Origin: Victivallaceae bacterium
GTDB taxonomy: Bacteria; Verrucomicrobiota; Lentisphaeria; Victivallales; Victivallaceae
Length of the DNA stretch: 64,000 nt
Direction of reading: 5' to 3'
Assembly: GCA_028709805.1 (NCBI GenBank)
Contig: JAQUTL010000005.1
Span: 1 to 64,000 of the forward strand
Shown: one piece after another, positions 35,488-57,043 of the stretch
How positions within the stretch are numbered: position 1 is the stretch's first letter
Layout: each line of letters starts with the position of its first letter
The notes under the pieces: generated by a model
What the model was told of the DNA's origin: nothing
What the model saw: only the letters and a program-made list of their open reading frames with translations
Databases searched by the model: none
Made by a program: the position numbers and the translations under genes

Positions 35488-35515
35488 TTGCTTTTTGGAG
35501 CGGCCGGGATATATT
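35488..35515 (+). promoter_or_regulatory. Promoter of the copper ATPase operon
   Basis: TTGCTT (35488-35493), 16 bp, TATATT (35510-35515), 41 bp before the start. No CueR-type long spacer is present. Confidence 0.6.
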
Positions 35516-35556
35516 GCTTTAATGAGGAAATGCGGAGACAAGGAGGAGGAACGGCT

Positions 35557-37728
35557 ATGAAAATGTTATTTTCTGTCGGAGGCATGAGTTGCGCTTCATG
35601 CGCCGCGCATGTGGAGAAGGCGGTGTCGGCGGTGCCGGGCGTGTCCAAAGTGTCGGTCAACTTACTGCGGGACAACATGCTGGTTGAGTTTGAGCCGTCG
35701 GCGGTTGGCGCGGATGCGATTGTCGCCGCAGTGGTGGCAGCCGGGTACAGCGCGGTTCCGGAAACGAACTGGACGGCGGAGTCATCCGGGGTTAAAAAAA
35801 AGGACTTTGCCCGTCAGGAGGCGGCGGCGGTTGGACGGCGGCTGGTCTGGTCGGCGGTTTTTCTGATTCCGCTTGGCGTCATCGGGATGTGGCTTCACGG
35901 CTGGCCGTATGTCCAGCTGGCACTGACCGTGCCGATATTATGGCTTAACCGCGGATATTTTATCGGCGGCGGCCGGCAGTTGCTGAAATTGTCCCCCAAT
36001 ATGGATTCGCTGGTGGCGCTTGGCGCCGGCGCCGGAGTTGTTTACAGCATTTTTGTGTTTGACCGCGGCATGCTATATTTTGACGCGGCGGCAATGATTC
36101 TTACGCTGATCACGCTGGGGAAATATCTTGAAGCGCGGTCGCGCCGGCGCACCGGCGACGCGATCGGCAAACTGCTCAAGATAGCTCCGAGCGCGGCGAC
36201 GGTGGAGCGCGATGGCAAAAAGATTGAGATTCCGGCCGGAGAACTCGCGGTCGGCGACATTGTGATCGTTCGCCCCGGAACGACCGTTCCGGCCGACGGT
36301 GTGATCGTTTTCGGTGACGGCGCGGTGAACGAGTCTGCCTTGACCGGCGAAAGCATGCCGGTGGAGAAACATTGCGGAGACCAACTTATCTCGGCCACCG
36401 TAAACACAACCGGATTTTTCAAATTCCGCGCCGAACGGGTCGGCGGCGACACCACGTTTTCACAGATTGTCCGGCTGGTCGAAGAGGCGTCGAGCAGCAA
36501 AGCGCCGATCGCGAAGCTGGCCGACCGGGTCAGCGCGGTGTTCGTTCCCGCGGTGATCGTCGCGGCGCTGGCGACCTTTATCGGCTGGCGGATGAACGAC
36601 GGGGCTTTGTATGACGCGGTGTCGGCGGCAATCGCCGTGCTGGTGGTAAGCTGTCCATGCGCTCTGGGGCTGGCTACGCCGGTGGCGATTATGGTGGGGA
36701 CCGGAAAGGGGGCGGAACTCGGAGTCCTGTTCAAGTCGGCCGAAGCGCTCCAGACGCTGCACAAAGTTTCGACCGCGGTGGTGGACAAGACCGGAACCGT
36801 GACATTCGGACGGCCGGAAGTGACCGATGTTTATCCGGAGTCCGGCGTCAAGCGCGTTGAACTGCTGAGGATTGCGGCGGCGCTGGAGGTGTTTTCCGAA
36901 CATCCGCTGGCGCATGCGGTCGTCGAAAAGGCGGCGGCCGAGAAGCTGGACGGCGGATTGACGGTAAGCAATTTTCGCTCGGTAACCGGCCGCGGCGTAT
37001 CGGGAATGCTCGACGGAACGAAGATTCTGGGTGGAAAACTTGATTTCATTGAAGAACACGGCATCGGCGTGGCCAATCTGCGGCGCTGGGGACGGACGCT
37101 GGCCGAAAACGGCAAAACCCCGATCTATTTTTCACGCGGCGGCGATCCGCTCGGAGTGATCGGAGTTGCCGACGTGGTGCGCCCGGAGAGCCGGCCGGCG
37201 ATCAAAAAATTTCATGATATGGGTATCACCGTCGTTCTGCTGACCGGCGACAACCGCACCACCGCCGGCGCGGTCGGCCGCGAATGCGGCGTCGACCGGA
37301 TTGTGGCCGACGTTCTGCCGGATCAGAAAGCCGGCGTCATCGGTGAAATGAAACGCTCCGGCGGCGTGACCGTGATGATCGGAGACGGCGTCAACGACGC
37401 TCCGGCTCTGGCCGCCGCCGACGTCGGAATGGCGATCGGCTCCGGAACCGATGTGGCGATCGAGGCCGCCGATGTGGTGCTGGTCAAAAATTCACTGGCG
37501 TCCGCCGTAACCGCGGTGGAGTTGAGCCGGGCGGTTATCCGCAATGTCCGGGAAAATCTGTTCTGGGCGTTCTTCTATAACGTTCTGTGCATCCCGCTGG
37601 CCGCGGCGGGGTATCTGCATCCGGTGGCGGCGGCGGCGGCGATGAGCGCAAGTTCAATCTGCGTGGTCGGCAATGCGTTGCGGCTGCGCAGGTTCGGGGC
37701 GCGCAAAAACGCAAAGGCCGGCGCATGA
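35557..37728 (+). CDS. copA: Copper-exporting P1B-type ATPase
   Basis: The 723-residue pump has one N-terminal metal-binding domain (GMSCASC, Cys 12 and 15), membrane helices, the A-domain TGES motif, the metal path motif SCPCALGLATP, the phosphorylation site DKTGTVTFGRP, the SEHPLAHAV motif, and GDGVNDAPAL. These make it a P1B-1 (Cu+/Ag+) ATPase. The ATG at 35557 has AGGAGGAGGA upstream; the longer frame adds a segment over the promoter. Its stop overlaps the Msr gene by 4 bp, so copper export and repair of oxidised methionine are coupled. Confidence 0.92.
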   Translation: MKMLFSVGGMSCASCAAHVEKAVSAVPGVSKVSVNLLRDNMLVEFEPSAVGADAIVAAVVAAGYSAVPETNWTAESSGVKKKDFARQEAAAVGRRLVWSAVFLIPLGVIGMWLHGWPYVQLALTVPILWLNRGYFIGGGRQLLKLSPNMDSLVALGAGAGVVYSIFVFDRGMLYFDAAAMILTLITLGKYLEARSRRRTGDAIGKLLKIAPSAATVERDGKKIEIPAGELAVGDIVIVRPGTTVPADGVIVFGDGAVNESALTGESMPVEKHCGDQLISATVNTTGFFKFRAERVGGDTTFSQIVRLVEEASSSKAPIAKLADRVSAVFVPAVIVAALATFIGWRMNDGALYDAVSAAIAVLVVSCPCALGLATPVAIMVGTGKGAELGVLFKSAEALQTLHKVSTAVVDKTGTVTFGRPEVTDVYPESGVKRVELLRIAAALEVFSEHPLAHAVVEKAAAEKLDGGLTVSNFRSVTGRGVSGMLDGTKILGGKLDFIEEHGIGVANLRRWGRTLAENGKTPIYFSRGGDPLGVIGVADVVRPESRPAIKKFHDMGITVVLLTGDNRTTAGAVGRECGVDRIVADVLPDQKAGVIGEMKRSGGVTVMIGDGVNDAPALAAADVGMAIGSGTDVAIEAADVVLVKNSLASAVTAVELSRAVIRNVRENLFWAFFYNVLCIPLAAAGYLHPVAAAAAMSASSICVVGNALRLRRFGARKNAKAGA

Positions 37729-46369: not shown

Positions 46370-48388
46370 ATGGACAATAACGAGAAGCTGTTTCAGGCGG
46401 CGGCCGACCGTGCGGGAACCATGTCGAAACTGGCCGTTTTCAGCGGTGTGGTTTCCGCATTGTTCGCGCTGGTTTCGCTGACCTGCGGCACAATATGGGA
46501 CGAGGTGGCCGGGAGCGACATTTTCAGTCTGGGATTTCCGGTTTATCTTATCGCTTTTATTTTTTCCATGTCGGCGCTGATCTATGCGGTGCTGTCGCGC
46601 GCGTCCAATTTGGAGGAAGCCGACAAGCTTCAGCTGGAGAAGCGCAAGGCGGGGCATCACGCGTTCGATGTGTCGGAGGACGTCCGGTTTACCGCCGGCC
46701 GGAGTTTTGCAAACTATAAAAAATACGCTCCGTATGTGGTCACGCTGCTCGGGGCGGCGCTGCTTTTGCTGCTGCTGTCCGGATACGCCGCCTACTGGGA
46801 GGGGCCGGACCGCATCCGGGCGGGTTCCAGCAATACGCTGAGGTCGCTGATCATTGCGATATTGATGATGACGCTGAGTGGATTTACGGGGGCGTTCTAT
46901 ATCGGTCAGGCGCGCGCGGCGAGTTTCCGCTGGCTGCGCGCCGTCGGCGGATGGTTTATCGTCGGATTCATCCTGATGCTGGGGGCGGCGGTCGAGTCGT
47001 GTCTGGCCCACTTCGGTGTTCACGGCGCGGAAAGCGCCATCGCCTGGACCGGATGGGGGCTGGTGCTGGTGCTGTCATTTGAACTGGTGATCGGCTTTGT
47101 GGTTGACTTCTACCGTCCGCGGACGGTGGAGGAGGCGCGGCCGATGTTCGAGTCCAGTCTGCTTTCGCTGTTCACCGAACCCGGCGGCGTGATGCGCAAT
47201 ATCGCGGACACGCTTGATTATCAATTCGGGTTCAAGGTGTCCGGCACTTATATTTACGGTTTTATTGAGCGGGCGCTGTTTCCGGCGCTGGCGGTGTGGG
47301 TGGTGCTGCTGTGGCTGTTCTCAGCCGTCGATCAGGTCGGTGACGGTGAGGTCGGGCTGCGGGTGCGCTGCGGCCGGCTTGTCAGCGAAAAACCGCTGGT
47401 TCCCGGACTTTACTTCAAACTGCCTTGGCCGTTTGAAACGATAGACCGCTACAACTGCAGCGTCATCCGCGAGATCGTGGTCGGTAACGATCACAGCGCC
47501 GGCCATGTTCATGAGGCCGAGGAACCGGAAGCGGACGACGGCCACGGCCACAGTCACGGTCCGGACAAGGCCGCTTTGGCCGCCGCCGAAGCCGAGGCTG
47601 AGGCGCGAAGCCGTCATCTGATGTTCTGGGACAACCACGAAGGCGAGGAGACGAGCAGCTATATGGTGGCGGTTGCCGCCGCCGGGGCACGCTCCGACGC
47701 AGCGTCCGGCGAGTTGCCGGTGAATATCGCGCTGCTGAATGTGACGTTCCCGGTGCAATACCGGATACGCGAGGAGCGGCTGCTGGATTATGTGTATCAC
47801 AACATTGATCCGTCCGCGATGCTGAAGCTGATCGGCGAGGACGTCGCCACCGAATATCTGGCCAGCGCCAGACTTGAGGGCGTGATGGCCACCGACCGGG
47901 GCAGGGTGACCGAGGCGATGAAAACCGGCATGCAGAAACTGGCCGACGGACTCGATCTCGGCGTGGATATCGTGGATGTGGCGATGATCGACGTGCATCC
48001 GGCTCCGGCCGTGGTCGAGGCGTACCGCAATGTGCTGAACGCGCAGGAGGAAATGCGCGGCGCGGTGTTGGCGGCCATGATTGACGAAATAAAAATCGTG
48101 CCGGCGTCCGAGGCCTACGCCAATGAGATTGTCGCCGCCGCCGAATCTTACAGCGGCGGACAGCGGCGGATCGCCGAGGCCGACGCCAACCGCTTCGGAA
48201 AACAGCTTGAGGCGTATTCGGTTCTGCCGGCGCTGTTCCGGCTGCGCAGCTATCTTGATGTGCTGGAAAGCGAGACGGTGAACGTCCGGAAATATATCAT
48301 CAGCGAAGCGCTGCGCCGCGAGGTGTATGAGCTGAACTTTGAAGAGAGCGTCAATTTCAATTTTTCCGATATGGAACTTGGCAAATAG
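46370..48388 (+). CDS. Polytopic SPFH/Band 7 protein with His-rich loop
   Basis: The 672-residue protein combines about seven membrane helices (roughly 20-42, 55-77, 120-140, 156-176, 192-212, 225-245, 303-322) with a C-terminal SPFH (stomatin/prohibitin/flotillin/HflK) domain, VGDGEVGLRVRCGRLVSEKP, then AMLKLIGEDVATEYLASARL and helical DVIDVHPAP-type segments. Inserted in the SPFH region, residues 374-397 form an acidic loop with six histidines (375, 379, 381, 392, 394, 396; DDGHGHSHG) that could bind Zn, Cu or Ni. Most HflK proteins have a single helix, so the extra membrane domain is unusual. The start at 46370 is preferred to 46262, which lies upstream of the promoter. It leads the operon; two more SPFH genes follow. 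Confidence 0.8.
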   Translation: MDNNEKLFQAAADRAGTMSKLAVFSGVVSALFALVSLTCGTIWDEVAGSDIFSLGFPVYLIAFIFSMSALIYAVLSRASNLEEADKLQLEKRKAGHHAFDVSEDVRFTAGRSFANYKKYAPYVVTLLGAALLLLLLSGYAAYWEGPDRIRAGSSNTLRSLIIAILMMTLSGFTGAFYIGQARAASFRWLRAVGGWFIVGFILMLGAAVESCLAHFGVHGAESAIAWTGWGLVLVLSFELVIGFVVDFYRPRTVEEARPMFESSLLSLFTEPGGVMRNIADTLDYQFGFKVSGTYIYGFIERALFPALAVWVVLLWLFSAVDQVGDGEVGLRVRCGRLVSEKPLVPGLYFKLPWPFETIDRYNCSVIREIVVGNDHSAGHVHEAEEPEADDGHGHSHGPDKAALAAAEAEAEARSRHLMFWDNHEGEETSSYMVAVAAAGARSDAASGELPVNIALLNVTFPVQYRIREERLLDYVYHNIDPSAMLKLIGEDVATEYLASARLEGVMATDRGRVTEAMKTGMQKLADGLDLGVDIVDVAMIDVHPAPAVVEAYRNVLNAQEEMRGAVLAAMIDEIKIVPASEAYANEIVAAAESYSGGQRRIAEADANRFGKQLEAYSVLPALFRLRSYLDVLESETVNVRKYIISEALRREVYELNFEESVNFNFSDMELGK

Positions 48389-48423
48389 CAAATAAAATTT
48401 TTATCACATAGGAGGAGCGTATC

Positions 48424-49506
48424 ATGGAGAATCAGGAGAAGCGCGGAGGATTTTTACGCCATTGGCCGGCGGTTCTGCTGGGCGCGGTGGTCAGTTTGAT
48501 TCTGATTTTTGCGATATTTACATTTCAGGTAAATGAGAACACCGCGGCGGTGGTGACCACGTTCGGGCGGGTGAATACGGAGGCTCCGCAGCCGGGGCTG
48601 CATTTCCGCTGGCCGTTTCCGGTGGAGAAAATTTATAAGTTCGACAAGCGGTCGCGCGCGTTCACCGGAACCGCCGCCGGCGCGGCCGAGGAGATACTGA
48701 CCAGCGACGGGAACAATATCGTCGTCAGCATTTTTGTGGTTTACCACATAGCCGATCCGGTGCTGTTTTTCGAGACGGTCAGCAATCTGTCGTCCGCCGA
48801 GCAGCGTTTGAACGATATGATGCGCAGCGCGAAAAGCTCCACGTTCGGGCGATTCCCGTTTTCAGCGCTGATCAATCCGGACCCGGCCAAGATGAAGCTC
48901 GGTGAGATATCCGAACAGATGCGCGGCGAGATCGCGTCGCAGGCGGAAAAGATCGGGCTGGCCATTGAGCGGGTCGGTATTAATTCGCTCAACGTTCCCG
49001 GCAAGATAACCGAAAAAATCTTCGAGCGGATGCGCAAGGAGCGCGAGGTTAAGGTTCAGGAGTTCCGTTCGCAGGGTGAGAAGCAGGCGCGCAACATCCG
49101 CACCGAGGCGCAGAAAAAAAGCAGTCAGATTGTTTCCGACGCCGAAGCCCAGGCCCGCGAGATCCGGGCCGAGGGTGACGCCGAGGCGGCAAAATATTAC
49201 CGCGAGTTCAGCAAGAATCCGGAATTGGCCGAGTTTTTGCGCAGTCTTGAGTCGATGCGCCAGATACTCCGTACACGCACCACGCTGGTTCTTGACACCG
49301 CCACGCCGCCGTTCGACCTGTTGAACGGCAACGCGCTGGGGCGTCTGTCCGAAGGTTCGGCGGAGGTTCCGGTTCCCATCCCGGCGGCGTCCGGCGAAAC
49401 TGCGGGAGGCGAGGAGGCGGACTTCTCGACGGCGCAGCAGCCGGTCGGCGGAATAGTTCCGGTGTCATCGGCTCCGTCCGTTCCCGCCATCGTGGACAAC
49501 AAATAA
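48424..49506 (+). CDS. HflC-like SPFH/Band 7 membrane protein
   Basis: The 360-residue protein has one N-terminal membrane helix (about 15-33), an SPFH domain (NENTAAVVTTFGRVNTEAPQ, then GLHFRWPFPVEKIYKFDKRS), and a coiled-coil tail with an alanine/glutamate-rich segment (about 215-260) typical of HflC and prohibitins, then a Pro-rich end. HflK/HflC complexes form membrane rings that hold AAA proteases or organise microdomains. No FtsH is in this window. GGAGGAG lies just before the ATG. It sits 35 bp after the polytopic SPFH gene. Confidence 0.85.
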   Translation: MENQEKRGGFLRHWPAVLLGAVVSLILIFAIFTFQVNENTAAVVTTFGRVNTEAPQPGLHFRWPFPVEKIYKFDKRSRAFTGTAAGAAEEILTSDGNNIVVSIFVVYHIADPVLFFETVSNLSSAEQRLNDMMRSAKSSTFGRFPFSALINPDPAKMKLGEISEQMRGEIASQAEKIGLAIERVGINSLNVPGKITEKIFERMRKEREVKVQEFRSQGEKQARNIRTEAQKKSSQIVSDAEAQAREIRAEGDAEAAKYYREFSKNPELAEFLRSLESMRQILRTRTTLVLDTATPPFDLLNGNALGRLSEGSAEVPVPIPAASGETAGGEEADFSTAQQPVGGIVPVSSAPSVPAIVDNK

Positions 49507-49530
49507 CAAGCGGGCCGGAGGAACTGGATT

Positions 49531-50682
49531 ATGAGCGAACAGCCAAATATCTTCAAAAAGGAGCCGGTCGCGCCGCCGATGGAGGCGGGCGGGGCCGTTG
49601 ATTCAGGAGTGAATTCACTGCTGAAGTCGCTGCGCTTTGCGTTTCTGACGCTGGTGGTGATAATCGTTGGAACGATGATTTACTTTGTCACGCTCGGCGG
49701 CTATATTGCCGTGCCGCCGCAGGAGGCGGTGATCGTGCTGAAGTTCGGCGCATACGAGGAGACCGCGCAGCGCGGTCCGCACTGGTTTTTTCCCTATCCG
49801 GTGAATGAATTTGTGCATATCCCGACTTCGCCGCAGATGATCACGGTGGCCTATATGCCTGATGGTTATGAGCGCGACGGAAAAATGCCGGAAAACAGCC
49901 GGCCGTGGATTAATTCCGGCATCGACGGTTATTTGCTGACCAGCGACACCAACATCATTCACACCGCGTGGAGCTTCACCTATATTGTCACCGAGCCGGA
50001 ACTGTACTACACCAAGTGCATGACGCCGGATGATCCGCGCAACGCCGACGAAATGTTTCAGTACGCCAAGACGCCGCCGACCGGCCGCGGACCGCAGACT
50101 CTGCTCAAGTGTCTCTTGAACGAGGCGGTCACCGAGGTCACCGCGCAAATGCCGGTGGATGAGATATTGACCAAGCGTTCGGAGTATCAGGCAAGAGTGT
50201 TCTCGATTTTCGCGCAGTCGGTTGCGGAGATGAACCTCGGCATGGTGATCGACAATCTGACGGTCAGCTCGATCGAGCCGCCGTCTCAGACGCAGGCGGC
50301 GTTTCTTGAGGCCACCAGCGCCGGAACCACCCGCGACACCTATATCACCGAGGCCAACGCCTTTGCAATCAGAACCGAGACCGAGGCGCAGAGCCGCGCC
50401 ACCAAGCTTCTGGCCGACGCCGACAGCTACAAACGGCAGGTCGTTTCCCAGTTGCGTTCGGAAAGCATCTACTTCAACAGCATTCTGGCCGAATACAACA
50501 AGAACAGCAATTCCACGCTGGTGGCGCTTTATTATGATGTGCTCGGCGAAGCTATGTCTGGAGTCGGTGAGAAATTTTTCCTCGGCGGCGACGGCATGAA
50601 GGAGCTTCGTCTGAAACTTAATCCCGAGATCAAAAAGGCCCCCGCGGCCGGGCAACCCCAGAATGGAGCGCAACTGCAATGA
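49531..50682 (+). CDS. HflK-like SPFH/Band 7 membrane protein
   Basis: The 383-residue protein has one membrane helix (about 33-56), an SPFH domain (VPPQEAVIVLKFGAYEETAQ, then GPHWFFPYPVNEFVHIPT), a helical coil (about 245-330) and an unstructured tail. With the preceding gene it forms a probable HflC/HflK-type pair. The SPFH region carries an insertion (TPDDPRNADEMFQYAKTPPT) not usual in HflK. The last 4 bp overlap the ATPase gene (ATGA). Confidence 0.85.
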   Translation: MSEQPNIFKKEPVAPPMEAGGAVDSGVNSLLKSLRFAFLTLVVIIVGTMIYFVTLGGYIAVPPQEAVIVLKFGAYEETAQRGPHWFFPYPVNEFVHIPTSPQMITVAYMPDGYERDGKMPENSRPWINSGIDGYLLTSDTNIIHTAWSFTYIVTEPELYYTKCMTPDDPRNADEMFQYAKTPPTGRGPQTLLKCLLNEAVTEVTAQMPVDEILTKRSEYQARVFSIFAQSVAEMNLGMVIDNLTVSSIEPPSQTQAAFLEATSAGTTRDTYITEANAFAIRTETEAQSRATKLLADADSYKRQVVSQLRSESIYFNSILAEYNKNSNSTLVALYYDVLGEAMSGVGEKFFLGGDGMKELRLKLNPEIKKAPAAGQPQNGAQLQ

Positions 50683-52604
50683 GCGATAAAATAGAAAGAA
50701 AAATCTCCGGAAAGCTGGCATGGCGGATCGGGCCGGCGCTTTTCGGCGGAATATTGACGTTGAATTCATTTCTGCTTTCCTGGCTGCTGCCGGGGCAGAG
50801 TTACGCCGCGCAGTTCAGCGCGATCGCCGGCGCATTGGTGCTGGCGGTGCCGATATTCATAACCGCGATCGCCGATCTGGTGTCCGGAAAAGTGCATATG
50901 AACGAACTGGTGGCGCTGGCGATTCTGGCCGCATTCGCCGGAAGCGATTATCAGACCGCCGGGGTGGTGGCGTTTTTTCTGCTGCTGACCATCATAATTG
51001 AGTCGCGCACCGCTTCCGGGGCGCAGCGGTCGATCGAAGAGCTGATCAAGCTGACGCCGACCACCGCTCACCGGGTGACGGATGGAACGGAGAGCGATGT
51101 CGAGGTGTCCGGTCTGGCCATTGGCGACGTGATCCGGGTGCGGCCGGGCGAGAATTTTCCGGTGGACGCCGCGATTGTAACCGGTGCGAGCACGGTAAAT
51201 CAGGCTTCGATCACCGGAGAATCCATGCCGCTTGAGAAGGGGCCGGGCGATGAAGTGTACGCAGGAACCATGAACCTGACCGGAATGGTCGAACTTACCG
51301 TCACCCGCATCGGAGAGGACACCACGCTTGGGAAGGTGAAGGATATGATTATGGCGGCCGAGCAGTCGCGGACGCCGATTGTCCGGATCATCGACCGTTA
51401 CGCCGGATATTACACGCCGACCGTTCTCATGCTGGCCGGCATCGCGTGGATATTGAGCGACTATCAGCTGGACCGCGTGATCACGGTTCTGGTGATTGCC
51501 TGTCCGTGCGCGGTGGTGCTTGCCACGCCCACGGCGGTGGTCGCGGCGGTGGCCGCCGCCGCCCGTCTGGGTATTTTTATCAAAAATGTCAGCCACCTCG
51601 AACTGGCGGCGAAAGTTCGTGCCTTCGTTTTTGACAAGACCGGCACGTTGACCGACGGGTTGCTGTCGGTGGTCAAACTTCAGCCGATCGGTGAAATTAA
51701 ACCGGCCGGGCTGCTGCGTTATGCGGCCAGCGCCGAAGTACACAGCAATCACCCGACCGCGCTGGCGTTTCAGAAGCTGGCGGAGGAGGCCGGTCTGAAA
51801 CTCGGCGAGACCACCGATTTCACTGAAACTCCCGGCAAGGGGGTGACCGCCAAGGTGGACGGCGAGCATTGCGTGGTCGGCAGAGCGGCGTATCTGGAAG
51901 CGCACACAATTCATGTGCCGCCGCATGAAGGCGGCGAGTCGGACGGGATGAGCGTGGTCTATGTGGCGGTCTCCGGCGTGGTGGTCGGCTGGGTCGGGTT
52001 GAAGGACAAGTTGCGCGCCGAGGCTCCGGAAATGCTTGCCGAACTGCGCGGTCTCGGTATTCGGCACTGCGCCATGGTCACCGGCGACCGAGTCAGCGTG
52101 GCCGAAACGATTGCCGGAAGTCTGCAGATTGACGAGTTCCGCAGTGAATGTCTGCCGGAGGACAAGGTGGAATATGTCGAAAAGCTCAAGAAGAGCATGG
52201 TCACTGCGGTGGTCGGCGACGGTGTGAATGACGCTCCGGCGCTGGCGGCCGGCGATCTCGGCATCGCCATGGGCGCGATCGGCAGCGACATTGCGATCAA
52301 CAGTGCGTCAATTGCGTTGATGACAAATGACCTGCGCAGAATACCGCTGTTGCTGGTTTTGTCGCGGAGGTCGCGGATGATCATTTCGCAGAATCTGCTG
52401 CTCGGTCTGGTTATTGTGGTCGGCGGAACGGTGCTGTCGCTGTTGGGAATGATGACTCCGGTGTGGGCCGCGATGATCCATACCGCAAGTTCAATATTGG
52501 TGATTTTCAACAGCGCGCGGCTGGTGCGTACCGGCGAGGAGCTTACTTTGGCCGAGCAGAAGACCGCTGTCGGGCGCAATTCAACTTCCGAGGGTAAAAA
52601 ATGA
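50679..52604 (+). CDS. P1B-type metal ATPase lacking the N-terminal metal-binding domain
   Basis: The 641-residue pump has the P-type core: A-domain TGESMPLEKGPG, the transmembrane metal site ACPCAVVLATP (Cys 275 and 277), the phosphorylation site DKTGTLTDGLL (Asp 319), the HP motif in SAEVHSNHPTALAF, and GDGVNDAPALAAGD. There is no HMA domain or His-rich tail, so metal must be fed another way. The last membrane helices (HTASSILVIFNSARL) lack the usual copper signature, and metal specificity is uncertain (Cu, Zn, Mn and others possible). It overlaps both neighbours by 4 bp. Confidence 0.88.
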   Translation: MSDKIERKISGKLAWRIGPALFGGILTLNSFLLSWLLPGQSYAAQFSAIAGALVLAVPIFITAIADLVSGKVHMNELVALAILAAFAGSDYQTAGVVAFFLLLTIIIESRTASGAQRSIEELIKLTPTTAHRVTDGTESDVEVSGLAIGDVIRVRPGENFPVDAAIVTGASTVNQASITGESMPLEKGPGDEVYAGTMNLTGMVELTVTRIGEDTTLGKVKDMIMAAEQSRTPIVRIIDRYAGYYTPTVLMLAGIAWILSDYQLDRVITVLVIACPCAVVLATPTAVVAAVAAAARLGIFIKNVSHLELAAKVRAFVFDKTGTLTDGLLSVVKLQPIGEIKPAGLLRYAASAEVHSNHPTALAFQKLAEEAGLKLGETTDFTETPGKGVTAKVDGEHCVVGRAAYLEAHTIHVPPHEGGESDGMSVVYVAVSGVVVGWVGLKDKLRAEAPEMLAELRGLGIRHCAMVTGDRVSVAETIAGSLQIDEFRSECLPEDKVEYVEKLKKSMVTAVVGDGVNDAPALAAGDLGIAMGAIGSDIAINSASIALMTNDLRRIPLLLVLSRRSRMIISQNLLLGLVIVVGGTVLSLLGMMTPVWAAMIHTASSILVIFNSARLVRTGEELTLAEQKTAVGRNSTSEGKK

Positions 52605-53785
52605 GCGAAGCAACGCAAGACAAAAAAATTGTGGTCAAGGCCATCGGTCTGACCAAGGTGTTCCGCGACTTCTGGAACCGGCCGAAAGCCAAGGCGGTCA
52701 ATGATATTGACTTTGAAGTGCGGGAAGGCGAGGTCGTCGGTTTGCTGGGGCCGAACGGATCGGGCAAGTCGACCACCGTCAAGATGATACTCGGGCTGCT
52801 GTATCCGAACGCCGGTCAGTTGACCGTGCTGGGCAAGTCGCCCCGGGCGGTGGACGCCAAGCGGGAGATCGGCTATCTGCCGGAGGATTCATATCTCTAC
52901 AAATATCTGACCGCTGATGAGACGCTGGACTTTTTCGGGTCGCTGTTCAACCTGTCGCGCACCGAGCGCAAACTGCGCATCGAACAGCTGCTGGACATGG
53001 TTGGATTGGCTCACGCCCGCAACCGGCGGGTCGGCGAGTTTTCCAAGGGCATGGCGCGGCGCATCGGGCTGGCGCAGGCGATGATCAACGATCCGGCGCT
53101 GCTGATCCTTGACGAGCCGACCAGCGGACTCGATCCGCTGGGCTGCCGTGAAGTGAAAGATCTGATATTGATGCTGAAAAAACGCGGCAAGACGGTGATT
53201 GTGACCAGCCATCTGCTGAGCGATGTGGAGGATGTTTGCGACCGTGTCGTCATTCTCTACGGCGGCAAGATCCGGGCGCAGGGAACGCTCAGCGAACTGC
53301 TGGAGGTTTCGGATGCCAACCGGATCGTCACGCCGGCGCTGCCGGCGGCGGCGATGACCAGGCTGCTTGAACTTTTGCGCGCCAGTCTGCACGGCGAGGA
53401 GTTCACCATCGACCATCCGCGCCGCTCGCTGGAGGATTTCTTCCTTGACGTTATAAATCGGGCCAAACAGGACAGTGTGGAAACCGCCGGCGTGGTCGGC
53501 GGCGGCCGGATTGCAAATTATCTGCAGGAGGGCGCAACGGACGAGAACAGGGTGTTGGAAAATCTGGTCAAGCCCGACCTTCCGATTATCGCGGCGGAGA
53601 AAAAACGAGAGGAGGAGGCGCTGCGGCGCGCCGAGGAGGAGTCCGAAAAACAGCGTCTGGATCAGGCGCTCGACGGGCTGGATAAAAACGAGGTGCCGGA
53701 GAAAAAACCGGATGACAAGGCCGAAGTCCGCGAAAACGTTGCGGAAGCCGATGAAAAACTAAACAACCTGCTGAACGACAAGTAA
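52601..53785 (+). CDS. ABC transporter ATP-binding protein with charged C-terminal extension
   Basis: The 394-residue protein has Walker A GPNGSGKST (about 49-57), the signature FSKGMARRIGLAQAM, Walker B LLILDEPTSGLDPLG and a switch His (VIVTSHLLSDVED). It resembles ABC-2 type ATPases (drug, lipid, sodium or copper exporters of the NosF type). After residue about 300 a highly charged, Lys/Glu/Asp-rich tail of roughly 90 residues follows (EEEALRRAEEESEKQR), probably a coiled coil. It is coupled to the P-type ATPase gene by ATGA, and the permease starts 1 bp after its stop. Confidence 0.9.
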   Translation: MSEATQDKKIVVKAIGLTKVFRDFWNRPKAKAVNDIDFEVREGEVVGLLGPNGSGKSTTVKMILGLLYPNAGQLTVLGKSPRAVDAKREIGYLPEDSYLYKYLTADETLDFFGSLFNLSRTERKLRIEQLLDMVGLAHARNRRVGEFSKGMARRIGLAQAMINDPALLILDEPTSGLDPLGCREVKDLILMLKKRGKTVIVTSHLLSDVEDVCDRVVILYGGKIRAQGTLSELLEVSDANRIVTPALPAAAMTRLLELLRASLHGEEFTIDHPRRSLEDFFLDVINRAKQDSVETAGVVGGGRIANYLQEGATDENRVLENLVKPDLPIIAAEKKREEEALRRAEEESEKQRLDQALDGLDKNEVPEKKPDDKAEVRENVAEADEKLNNLLNDK

Positions 53786-53786
53786 G

Positions 53787-55397
53787 ATGAAAGCTTTTTG
53801 GACAATCGTAAAACTGACCTGCCGCAACGCGGTCCGATCGCACATCTTCCAGCTGCTGCTGGCAATACTGGTATTGTGCGTGGTGTTTATTCCGGCCACC
53901 ATTGAGGGGGACGGGACGGTGCGCGGCTTTATTCAGGTGTCGCTGAAATTCAGCTTGTTCGCCGTGGCGCTGATGCTGTCGCTTTCCGCAGTATGGTCAA
54001 GCTGTATGACCATGACTCAGGATATCGAGGGCTACCAGCTGCACATGGTTATCACCAAGCCGGTGGGGCGGGTGACGATATGGCTGGCAAAGTGGTTCGG
54101 CATATTTCTGATCCACCTGTCGCTGTTGCTCATCGCCGCGGCGCTGGTTTATGTGGTGGTGCTGGCGCGTTACAACGCGCAGCTGGTGCCGGACGGCGAG
54201 CTTGAACGGGTGCAGACCGAGATCGCCGCGCTTGAGGCGAAGATGCGCACCATGCCGAACACACTGGAGCGTGACGGTGTTGAACTCCGGTTGAATGAAC
54301 GGCGAGACATGGCCAAGTCGCTCGAAAAACGTTTGACCGAGGATGCCAGAATCCGCAATGAGGTTCTGATCGCCCGCCGCGCCTTTGTCACGGTCGGCAG
54401 TGTTCAGCTGGAAGACGGGACTACGGTGGATATGCCGATGGCGACGCCGGAATTTGTGGCGGCGAAGGCCAGGGCCAGGTTCAGGACGATGCTGCGCGAC
54501 AACGAGATACGTGGAGTGGTATGGGATGCCGGCACCCAACGCGAACTGCTGAATGATGTGAAAGTCGATGTTGTCAAAGACGAGTCGGTGGTTCCCTATG
54601 GCGTGGACAAGCGGAAAGTTTGGCGCATAACCGGACTGCCGGTCGGCGGGACCAATCCGCTGTATCTCCGGTTCCGTATTTTTGTGACCAAGATTTCCGA
54701 CTCAACCGAACGCGATACGCTCGGTCAGTGGTTCTACGGCCGGGTAATCAGCACCGGGAACGGTGAAACGGCGGCCAGCAATGTCAGCTGGGAGCCGTTG
54801 AACCAGCTGCCGCGGCTGTACCGTACCAACCACTTTATTGAGGAGCGGCTGCCGTTCGAGGCGGTCGATTCGTCCGGAACCGTGCTGCTGTCGTTCATCA
54901 ATTTCGATCCGCAGCAGGAGGATATGTTCTTTCAGATATGGGACGGTCCGAACATCTATGCCGCATACGGCGGGTTCACGATGAATTATGTCAAATGCGT
55001 GATGATAATCGCAATGGCGCTGATGGTGCTGTGCGGACTGGGATGCGCGGTTTCCGGCGTTTTTTCAATGCCGACCAGTATTTTCTTTGTAATCGCGTAT
55101 CTGTTTGTCGGCGGGCTGGCGGCGGCGGTGTCCAGTCAGGGCTACCTGATAACCAGCGATCCGTTGATTGCGGCTCAGGCCGAGGTCGGGTCGGCGGTGG
55201 GCAAGGTGATTCTGAAACTGGTGATTCCACTGCAGCGGTTTGACGTGTCGTCAAAAGTCGCGGACGGCGTGATGGTGGAATGGATATACATCTTCAAACT
55301 GCTCCTGTATTACTGCGTGATGCGTGCTGTGCCGCTGTGTCTGCTCGGCATTTGGCTGTACCGCCGGCGGGAAATGGGACTGGTGATCAAAAAATGA
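53787..55397 (+). CDS. ABC-2 type permease with large extracytoplasmic insert
   Basis: The 536-residue permease has membrane helices at about 20-37, 49-71 and 108-130, then a long soluble segment (about 135-395) rich in coiled-coil helix (ELERVQTEIAALEAKMRT) and beta strands, then a C-terminal bundle of about three helices (from 408). The order fits the ABC-2/GldG-like type. The insert is probably outside the cytoplasm, where it could touch a substrate or partner. The partner ATPase is just upstream. The stop overlaps the next start (ATGA at 55394). Confidence 0.85.
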   Translation: MKAFWTIVKLTCRNAVRSHIFQLLLAILVLCVVFIPATIEGDGTVRGFIQVSLKFSLFAVALMLSLSAVWSSCMTMTQDIEGYQLHMVITKPVGRVTIWLAKWFGIFLIHLSLLLIAAALVYVVVLARYNAQLVPDGELERVQTEIAALEAKMRTMPNTLERDGVELRLNERRDMAKSLEKRLTEDARIRNEVLIARRAFVTVGSVQLEDGTTVDMPMATPEFVAAKARARFRTMLRDNEIRGVVWDAGTQRELLNDVKVDVVKDESVVPYGVDKRKVWRITGLPVGGTNPLYLRFRIFVTKISDSTERDTLGQWFYGRVISTGNGETAASNVSWEPLNQLPRLYRTNHFIEERLPFEAVDSSGTVLLSFINFDPQQEDMFFQIWDGPNIYAAYGGFTMNYVKCVMIIAMALMVLCGLGCAVSGVFSMPTSIFFVIAYLFVGGLAAAVSSQGYLITSDPLIAAQAEVGSAVGKVILKLVIPLQRFDVSSKVADGVMVEWIYIFKLLLYYCVMRAVPLCLLGIWLYRRREMGLVIKK

Positions 55398-57043
55398 CAA
55401 AATTCAAGACAATTTCAATTTATACGGCGCTGATTTTGGCGTCGCTGGTGATGCTGTTCGGCATCAGTCGGCTTGAACGTTCGATCGAGGGCGACATCAA
55501 GACCCATCACCTCCGTTTTACCGGAGAGATCAAGAATGCTCCGGGCTGGGTGAGCTTCACCACGGTGGCGCTGGGGAGTTTTCGCGGTCTGCTGGCCGAT
55601 TTGCTGTGGCTGCATCAGATTTCGCTGAAAGACCAGGGCAGTTATTTTGAGATGGTTCAGCTGGCCAACTGGATCACCGACCTGCAGCCGCAATTCGCCG
55701 GTTCGGCGGTATATCTCGGCTGGGAAATGGCCTACAATCTGTCGGTGACCTGTTCAAATTTCGAAGATCGCTGGCGTTGGATTCAGGAGGGGCTCAAACT
55801 GTTGCGCGACAAGGCGATGATCTATAATCCGGAAGATACCAACATCTATTTTGACATGACGCGGATTTATACGGAAAAACTCGGCAACGTATACGATGAC
55901 GCCCACCTGTTCTATAAGAACAAACTGTTTATGGAAACCACCCGGGTGATGGGCAAGAATCCCGACTGGGAGGCAATGGCGGCGGTGGTGCCGAATTTTA
56001 GACTGTCTGACTGGGACCCGGCGCGGATTTTCAACGAAAAGTTTCCGCCGAAAAGCGATGCCAGAGCCATTATCGAGGCGGCCGGCTATCCGGATTTTGA
56101 CGCGCTGCTGCAGGCGTACAGCAAGTTCGACCATATGCCGGATGGACTTGGGAAACTTTCCTCCGAAGAGCGCGACTGGCTGAATACCTATTTGCGCGCC
56201 GCATGGATATGGAACGCTTTCCGGCTTAATCCGCACCGGGTGCTGGCCGTGAACCGCGAGTTCGGCGATCTGGACTGGCACACTTGCGAAGCGTTCGGGA
56301 TTTACTGGTCCTATCTCGGTCTGGAGTTTCGTCCGCCGAATCAGCGCCGTCGCCAGCTGGACAATTTCATCGCGATTTCGCTGCAGTCCTCATTCCGTTC
56401 CGGACGGCCGCTGGTGACCGATCCGGAGAAGATGGTGTACTATATCGGCGTGCCGAATTTCAGCGTGGTGGACCGTACGCTCCGCGCGGCGCAGGAAGGA
56501 TACGAACTCAACCGCAACGATACGTCTTTCCTGCTGTCGCGGAACTACTTCCTGCGTGACGCGGTGGTGCTGTTCTACACCTACGGACAGACCGCTAAAG
56601 CGGAGGAGATGTATAGACTGTTGAAGAAATACGATGTCGGCATGACCGACTCCAAGTTGACGCTGGAACAGTTCTACAATCAGGAGCTTGCGGAGACCAT
56701 AAGGTTCGCCACAGTGAAGGACATCGGTGAACTGCTGGTCGGCACGATTTATCGCTCGATCCATTTCTGGGTTTTGGGCGACAACCGTCACGCGGCGGAA
56801 CTTGACGCGTCCGCCGAATGGATGTACAACCGCTTTGTTGAGATGAATAAGGCCCGCGAGCGGGGAGTGGAACTCCCTCCGCTGGAGGTGATTTATCGGG
56901 TTGTGGTCGACAATTTTATGAAGAATGCCCCGAAGCCGCTGGCGGAGCGGTTGCGCAAACTGCTTGAACAGTCGGCGGAACAGGCCAGACTGACAAGAGA
57001 GGCGGCGGCCGCGGCAGAGAACAAACTCCCGGAGATAAAATAG
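55394..57043 (+). CDS. Conserved membrane-anchored helical protein, unknown function
   Basis: The 549-residue protein is not assigned to a named family. It has one N-terminal anchor helix (about 7-24), then a segment with FRGLLADLLWLH (around residue 65), then alpha-helical sequence rich in Trp, Tyr and Phe that looks like degenerate TPR-type repeats (LGWEMAYNLSVT, NPEDTNIYFDMTRIYTEK), and a charged tail. The FRG-LAD-LW motif after one anchor recurs, as I recall, in proteins of PVC-group bacteria. Tight coupling to the permease suggests it is a partner or adaptor of the transporter. The frame start at 55280 overlaps the permease and is not used. Confidence 0.75.
   Translation: MTKFKTISIYTALILASLVMLFGISRLERSIEGDIKTHHLRFTGEIKNAPGWVSFTTVALGSFRGLLADLLWLHQISLKDQGSYFEMVQLANWITDLQPQFAGSAVYLGWEMAYNLSVTCSNFEDRWRWIQEGLKLLRDKAMIYNPEDTNIYFDMTRIYTEKLGNVYDDAHLFYKNKLFMETTRVMGKNPDWEAMAAVVPNFRLSDWDPARIFNEKFPPKSDARAIIEAAGYPDFDALLQAYSKFDHMPDGLGKLSSEERDWLNTYLRAAWIWNAFRLNPHRVLAVNREFGDLDWHTCEAFGIYWSYLGLEFRPPNQRRRQLDNFIAISLQSSFRSGRPLVTDPEKMVYYIGVPNFSVVDRTLRAAQEGYELNRNDTSFLLSRNYFLRDAVVLFYTYGQTAKAEEMYRLLKKYDVGMTDSKLTLEQFYNQELAETIRFATVKDIGELLVGTIYRSIHFWVLGDNRHAAELDASAEWMYNRFVEMNKARERGVELPPLEVIYRVVVDNFMKNAPKPLAERLRKLLEQSAEQARLTREAAAAAENKLPEIK

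Follow-up and report, generated by a model that had tools for sequence, protein, structure and literature searches.

The window, meaning the whole 64,000-nucleotide stretch of Victivallaceae bacterium contig JAQUTL010000005.1 that was analysed, carries an operon at 46370-57043 whose seven genes comprise three SPFH genes, a P1B ATPase gene, an ABC pair and orf7. They are arranged in the order spfhA, spfhB, spfhC, P1B ATPase, ABC ATPase, ABC permease-like and orf7, and SPFH-A is the product of the first. The genes and the features within them are as follows.

46370..48388, + strand: SPFH-A, a seven-TM protein whose C-terminal SPFH (HflK-like) domain bears the His loop
46370..47155, + strand: N-terminal six-helix membrane domain of SPFH-A, with a possibly CDF-like fold and without the CDF metal site (AF2, Foldseek)
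47249..47320, + strand: TM7 of SPFH-A, counterpart of the single TM in HflK/HflC, after which the SPFH domain is predicted to be periplasmic
47492..47562, + strand: His/Asp/Glu-rich loop of SPFH-A, residues 375-398 (AF2 confidence low, about 45-70)
47534..47551, + strand: DDGHGH core of the loop, SPFH-A residues 389-394, conserved in the family
48424..49506, + strand: SPFH-B, HflC-like (TIGR01932 above cut-off)
49531..50682, + strand: SPFH-C, HflK-like (TIGR01933 E=3.5e-32, below cut-off)
50679..52604, + strand: heavy-metal ATPase of P1B type, lacking both an HMA and the His/Cys tail seen in most relatives (TIGR01525 E=5e-161)
50679..50732, + strand: short pump N-terminus MSDKIERKISGKLAWRIG, in place of the relatives' tail
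51501..51509, + strand: CPC in TM6 of the window's pump (replaced by CPG, CPV, CPL or VPA in other lineages that have the loop)
52479..52493, + strand: HTASS motif in TM8 of the pump
52601..53785, + strand: ABC transporter ATP-binding protein
53787..55397, + strand: ABC permease-like partner (unmatched in Pfam and NCBIfam)
55394..57043, + strand: orf7, last of the seven conserved genes (likewise unmatched in Pfam and NCBIfam)

The operon and its seven-helix SPFH protein

The seven-gene order recurs in nearly all relatives with long enough contigs, whether the loop is present or absent, and the operon ranges over Lentisphaerota and some of the Verrucomicrobiota. In this genome, the FtsH gene lies on a different contig. 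The genome is incomplete; among the genes classified, the spfhA-B-C triad is apparently its sole HflK/C-like set, with further Band_7 genes lying on C25 and C46. Elsewhere in the window, a second P1B ATPase (35488-37728) has an N-terminal HMA, the sole HMA match in this genome, and the ORF that follows it, up to 38702, resembles a fused methionine sulfoxide reductase.

The frame of SPFH-A extends for 672 aa from the ATG at 46370. Its sole Pfam domain is Band_7 (residues 322-367, E=1.8e-7, 31.8 bits vs a gathering score of 23.6), and the DUF1490 domain of PacL is absent. The HflK model TIGR01933 matches residues 452-645 (E=2.6e-24) with 86.1 bits, under its cut-off of 159.4. HflK 7vhq is the top PDB match both by sequence and by fold, and a Foldseek search returned HflK, stomatin, prohibitin and erlin. 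The Band_7 score and the SPFH fold both place the protein in the SPFH/Band 7 superfamily; the sub-threshold TIGR01933 score and the seven TMs, rather than a single N-terminal one, do not fit HflK/HflC, although HflK is the closest fold. In 84 of 84 aligned SPFH-A proteins, a His-Pro pair (DVHP, residues 543-544) is invariant and possibly represents a ligand or structural residue. Two SPFH-A homologues (L276:1302-4469, minus strand, and L277:1062-4097) carry approximately 400 additional N-terminal residues, a region with no Pfam match.

Seven TMs were predicted for SPFH-A from family-averaged hydropathy. Read from the N-terminus, the K+R counts are 2.6 / 0.8 / 8.7 / 1.6 / 3.0 / 0.9 / 6.5, with means of 2.6-8.7 inside vs 0.8-1.6 outside, and this alternation places the N-terminus inside and the SPFH domain beyond TM7 outside. 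In HflC, a protein whose SPFH domain lies in the periplasm, the single TM corresponds to TM7 in the alignment. On these grounds, the loop is predicted to be on the periplasmic side, opposite the cytosolic tail and entry of the pump.

The histidine-rich loop

Bases 47492-47562 encode HSAGHVHEAEEPEADDGHGHSHGP, residues 375-398 of SPFH-A, with histidines at 375, 379, 381, 392, 394 and 396 (47492-47557); two further histidines, 416 and 423, lie beyond the loop. Six His per 24 residues was reached in 12 of 20,000 shuffles of SPFH-A. The preliminary description had reported six histidines among acidic residues in an SPFH protein; the sequence bears out the cluster, and the Band_7, HflK-model and 7vhq matches uphold the SPFH assignment. 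Its location was also correct, although the residue numbers given (374-397) were one off. It had further regarded the site as one where the domain is not usually interrupted, which is wrong because every orthologue has a variable spacer there, 21-55 aa long between the same anchors (window residues 366 to 420). The alignment of SPFH-A to HflK likewise breaks exactly at this site, and the loop sits in the gap between the Band_7 match and the HflK-model match. In the AF2 model, it forms a low-confidence segment between strands 367-372 and 431-435/452-466. Many orthologues have short loops at the same spacer.

Within the window's family, DDGHGH is present in all 23 loops of at least 42 aa. Residues flanking the core vary freely in these long loops, while G-H-G-H is invariant, and synonymous variants occur at six of six core codons (GAC/GAT, CAC/CAT and, for the first Gly, all four of its codons). 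Given its retention in 23/23 long loops together with synonymous change at every codon, the core is, as judged from this codon pattern, under selection. The cluster resembles a metal site and is probably a metal-binding element, most likely of the Zn2+ type.

Loop and pump across relatives

The operon pump scored 537.3 bits against TIGR01525 (cut-off 346.25) and contains CPC, TGES, DKTGT, SNHP and GDGVNDAP; the model match, the CPx motif and the catalytic motifs all identify it as a P1B heavy-metal ATPase. Most relatives' pumps have an N-terminal tail of 30-110 aa rich in His/Cys, which is built of C-x-C-G-H-D-H type repeats and ends in G-x-GHDR(S/A)MGR. By comparison with these relatives, the window's pump is one that has lost its tail. 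The preliminary description had correctly stated that the P-type ATPase three genes downstream lacks an N-terminal HMA, and had tied the loop to this absence. That tie holds to the extent that the loop is found together with pumps that have no metal-binding N-terminus (11/11, and in a second clade). It fails for the HMA itself, which was found in 0 of 60 sampled operon pumps, with or without the loop, so that an HMA-less pump was ruled out as a distinguishing feature and the loss of the His/Cys tail is what is special. Compensating His clusters were looked for in the remaining proteins of operons from tail-less lineages, and none was found (maximum of 3 His per 25 aa).

The tail-less set was drawn from 108 non-redundant operons and consists of pumps whose sequence ahead of TM1 has no Cys and no more than one His. 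In the window's order, it comprises 11 pumps (the window, L111, L047, L049, L114, L058, L064, L096, L126, L127 and L057), all 11 of which belong to DGHGH-loop operons. CPC was also lost in nine of them (CPG, CPV, CPL), with the window and L111 retaining it. Ten loop operons retain both the pump tail and CPC, and the loop is thus not merely a substitute for the tail; as a tendency, the loop has 2-5 His in tail-retaining operons vs 5-7 in tail-less ones. A pair of operons from one genus, sisters on the tree, combines both states, with L043 having the tail, CPC and no loop, and L057 having the loop, no tail and CPL.

The same arrangement appears in a different family of the same class, where the seven sampled operons (L205, L206, L207, L210, L211, L213 and L215) all have a loop with 5-9 His and pumps with no tail and CPC replaced by VPA. 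The TM6 alignment underlying this replacement is unambiguous (MSVPAALVIATPSA vs MSCPCALVIATPSA). Outside the window's family, the exact DDGHGH occurs in L205 and L206. Members of neighbouring families (L208, L212 and L214) have the tail and CPC and no His loop. The VPA clade is, on these alignments, an independent repeat of the loop/tail-loss pattern. The catalytic motifs are intact in all tail-less pumps with the region covered (the L127 sequence is cut short), and a dead pump in the CPC-lost lineages was ruled out on this basis wherever the region is covered. As CPC has been lost in most of the lineages with the loop, the pump in these may no longer move a soft metal.

A tree of 119 operons was divided into the following classes.

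No loop, tail, CPC: 87 operons
Loop, no tail, not CPC: 15 operons
Loop, tail, CPC: 10 operons
Loop, no tail, CPC: 3 operons
No loop, no tail, CPC: 3 operons
No loop, no tail, not CPC: 1 operon

At least three loop histidines were found in 28 of the 119 operons overall, in 15/16 of those with CPC lost and in 18/22 of those with the tail lost. Pagel's test of correlated change gave an LRT of 22-23 for tail vs loop (19-25 over other thresholds, all thresholds being picked after the data had been seen) and 18.9 for CPC vs loop. The observed LRT was reached by 0 of 22 simulations under the independent model, a small number, for which the 95th percentile was 8.0. Independent-pairs sign tests for the loop/pump association were underpowered and gave p values of 0.06 or more. 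In an AU test, a tree uniting three of the Lentisphaerota tail losses was not rejected (p=0.325); within that group, the tail losses may go back to a minimum of two events in addition to the f10 clade, and the number of independent losses is small. In four operons (L110, L080, L219 and L220), a tail-poor pump is not accompanied by the loop. Most operons are without the loop, which is therefore not essential to the system. The preliminary description had held that its proposal would fall if orthologues with the same operon lacked the histidines; most orthologues do lack them, yet in a patterned and not a random way. The overall distribution suggests that metal handling may have moved from pump to scaffold in lineages like that of the window.

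SPFH scaffolds and metal exporters

True fusions of metal transporters with SPFH domains were encountered among the relatives. A CDF domain (PF01545) is followed by SPFH in one ORF at L270:1032-2576, L271:786-2354 and L275:668-2212, and a P1B ATPase is followed by SPFH in one ORF at L272:36-2954 and L273:1867-5109 (minus strand). HflC-like and HflK-like SPFH genes adjoin the L270 and L272 fusions, and profile matches indicate SPFH genes beside the fusions in the remaining loci as well. A literature search of a mainly open-access collection returned no relevant paper on SPFH fusions with P-type ATPases or CDF proteins, which is a weak sign of novelty. In a 2009 survey of the SPFH proteins of prokaryotes, none of the words metal, cation, transporter and ATPase occurs.

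The six-helix domain of SPFH-A was itself compared with CDF transporters. Modeled alone with AF2 (pLDDT 91.9, pTM 0.90), its best Foldseek PDB matches were YiiP, ZnT8, ZnT3, ZnT1 and ZnT4, with probabilities near 1, E values of 0.03-0.2 and TM-scores of 0.36-0.49. SPFH-A differs from CDF proteins in having no PF01545 match at E 0.01, in that neither TM2 nor TM5, where the HxxxD/DxxxD site would lie, has a conserved His or Asp, and in that TM7 and the SPFH domain follow. Sequence homology of the domain to CDF was considered and not claimed, the hhalign probability of 4% being too weak. With moderate confidence, the domain is probably a CDF transporter that has degenerated and now serves as a scaffold.

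The structurally nearest system is the HflK/HflC cage around FtsH (7vhp, 7vhq, 7wi3, 9cz2), which has a periplasmic SPFH domain after a TM, as predicted for SPFH-A, and likewise an HflK-like plus HflC-like pair. However, SPFH-A has six extra TM helices, there are three SPFH genes rather than two, and the genes they are linked with encode a P1B ATPase and an ABC transporter instead of FtsH. The pump resembles ZntA/CopA-type P1B ATPases in its TIGR01525 score, its CPC in TM6 and its intact catalytic motifs, whereas the operon pumps lack HMA, mostly have a His/Cys tail, carry HxxS[ST] in TM8 and have lost CPC in several loop lineages. PacL1, a mycobacterial membrane scaffold with the zinc motif DLHDHDH, shares an operon with the P1B ATPase CtpC and forms efflux platforms; it was called flotillin-like in function by its authors and acts without flotillin (PMC9374683, PMC13043812). 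SPFH-A and PacL1 have in common a scaffold and a P1B ATPase in one operon and a short Asp/His motif (DLHDHDH in PacL1, DDGHGH in SPFH-A). By contrast, PacL1 belongs to the DUF1490 proteins, is small, has one TM and carries its motif on the cytoplasmic side, whereas SPFH-A is a genuine member of the SPFH superfamily that has seven TMs, with the loop predicted to be periplasmic; the operon and the motif thus agree with a PacL-type scaffold, and the side of the membrane, by prediction, does not. No sequence relation between the two was found, and PacL1/CtpC is best regarded as the nearest functional analogue of SPFH-A and its pump, unrelated to them by descent.

We propose, with a probability of approximately 0.5, that the loop is a selected, probably metal-binding periplasmic element on the SPFH scaffold of a P1B/ABC metal-export platform. 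The three SPFH proteins would surround or cap the P1B ATPase and the ABC transporter, together forming the platform, and the loop, on the exit side and close to the base of the SPFH dome, would capture, buffer or sense metal that has been exported or is present in the envelope. In lineages like that of the window, metal binding would have shifted from the cytosolic tail of the pump to the outer face of the scaffold.

Alternatively, the loop could sense periplasmic or envelope metal and regulate the platform while the pump works on another, non-soft or unknown, substrate, without any capture at the exit. The replacement of CPC by CPG, CPV, CPL or VPA in most loop lineages, with catalytic motifs intact where covered, would agree with this, but the window and L111 retain CPC and ten loop lineages retain both CPC and the tail, which leaves it a modest chance. 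That the triad is an ordinary HflK/HflC-type modulator of FtsH, with a His loop that only stabilises or tunes cage assembly and a pump that is incidental, appears unlikely: although HflK and HflC are the nearest structures and the triad is apparently the sole such set found in an incomplete genome with FtsH encoded elsewhere, the seven-gene linkage with the P1B ATPase is kept across two lineages, loop and pump change in correlation, and SPFH domains are fused to metal transporters. We consider it quite unlikely that the loop serves as a flexible, charged spacer or as an epitope for protein binding, using His for contacts rather than metal. Its acidic low-complexity surroundings, the low AF2 confidence and the short loops of many orthologues would suit such a role, yet G-H-G-H is invariant amid free change, loop histidines are more numerous where the pump tail is lost (5-7 vs 2-5), and His-rich loops arose independently in another clade. 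Although the loop is found alongside pumps without a metal-binding N-terminus, delivery of metal to the pump, or replacement of its HMA on the entry side, as the preliminary description had envisaged, is highly improbable, since the loop is predicted to be periplasmic whereas the pump takes up metal from the cytosol, and HMA is missing from all pumps, loop or not; capture, buffering or sensing on the exit side fits the loop better.

The association of SPFH scaffolds with metal exporters, to which they are both tied and fused, is more interesting than the loop alone. To our knowledge, little is established about what bacterial SPFH proteins enclose beyond FtsH. Taken together, the fusions, the long-conserved operon and the correlated loop/pump change lead to a concrete hypothesis of SPFH cargo, namely metal exporters, which would extend the idea of metal-efflux platforms, up to now documented for mycobacterial PacL scaffolds, which are unrelated, to true SPFH proteins. 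More tentatively, these systems may constitute an undescribed class of SPFH metal-export machine, in which the dome would form a periplasmic exit chamber over the pumps, a CDF or P1B transporter would sometimes be fused to an SPFH subunit, and metal ligands would have moved several times between the cytosolic tail of the pump and the outer-face loop of the dome.

At the L270 locus, the ORF directly upstream of the CDF-SPFH fusion (L270:30-1007) encodes a parvulin-type PPIase with a His/Cys-rich C-terminus.
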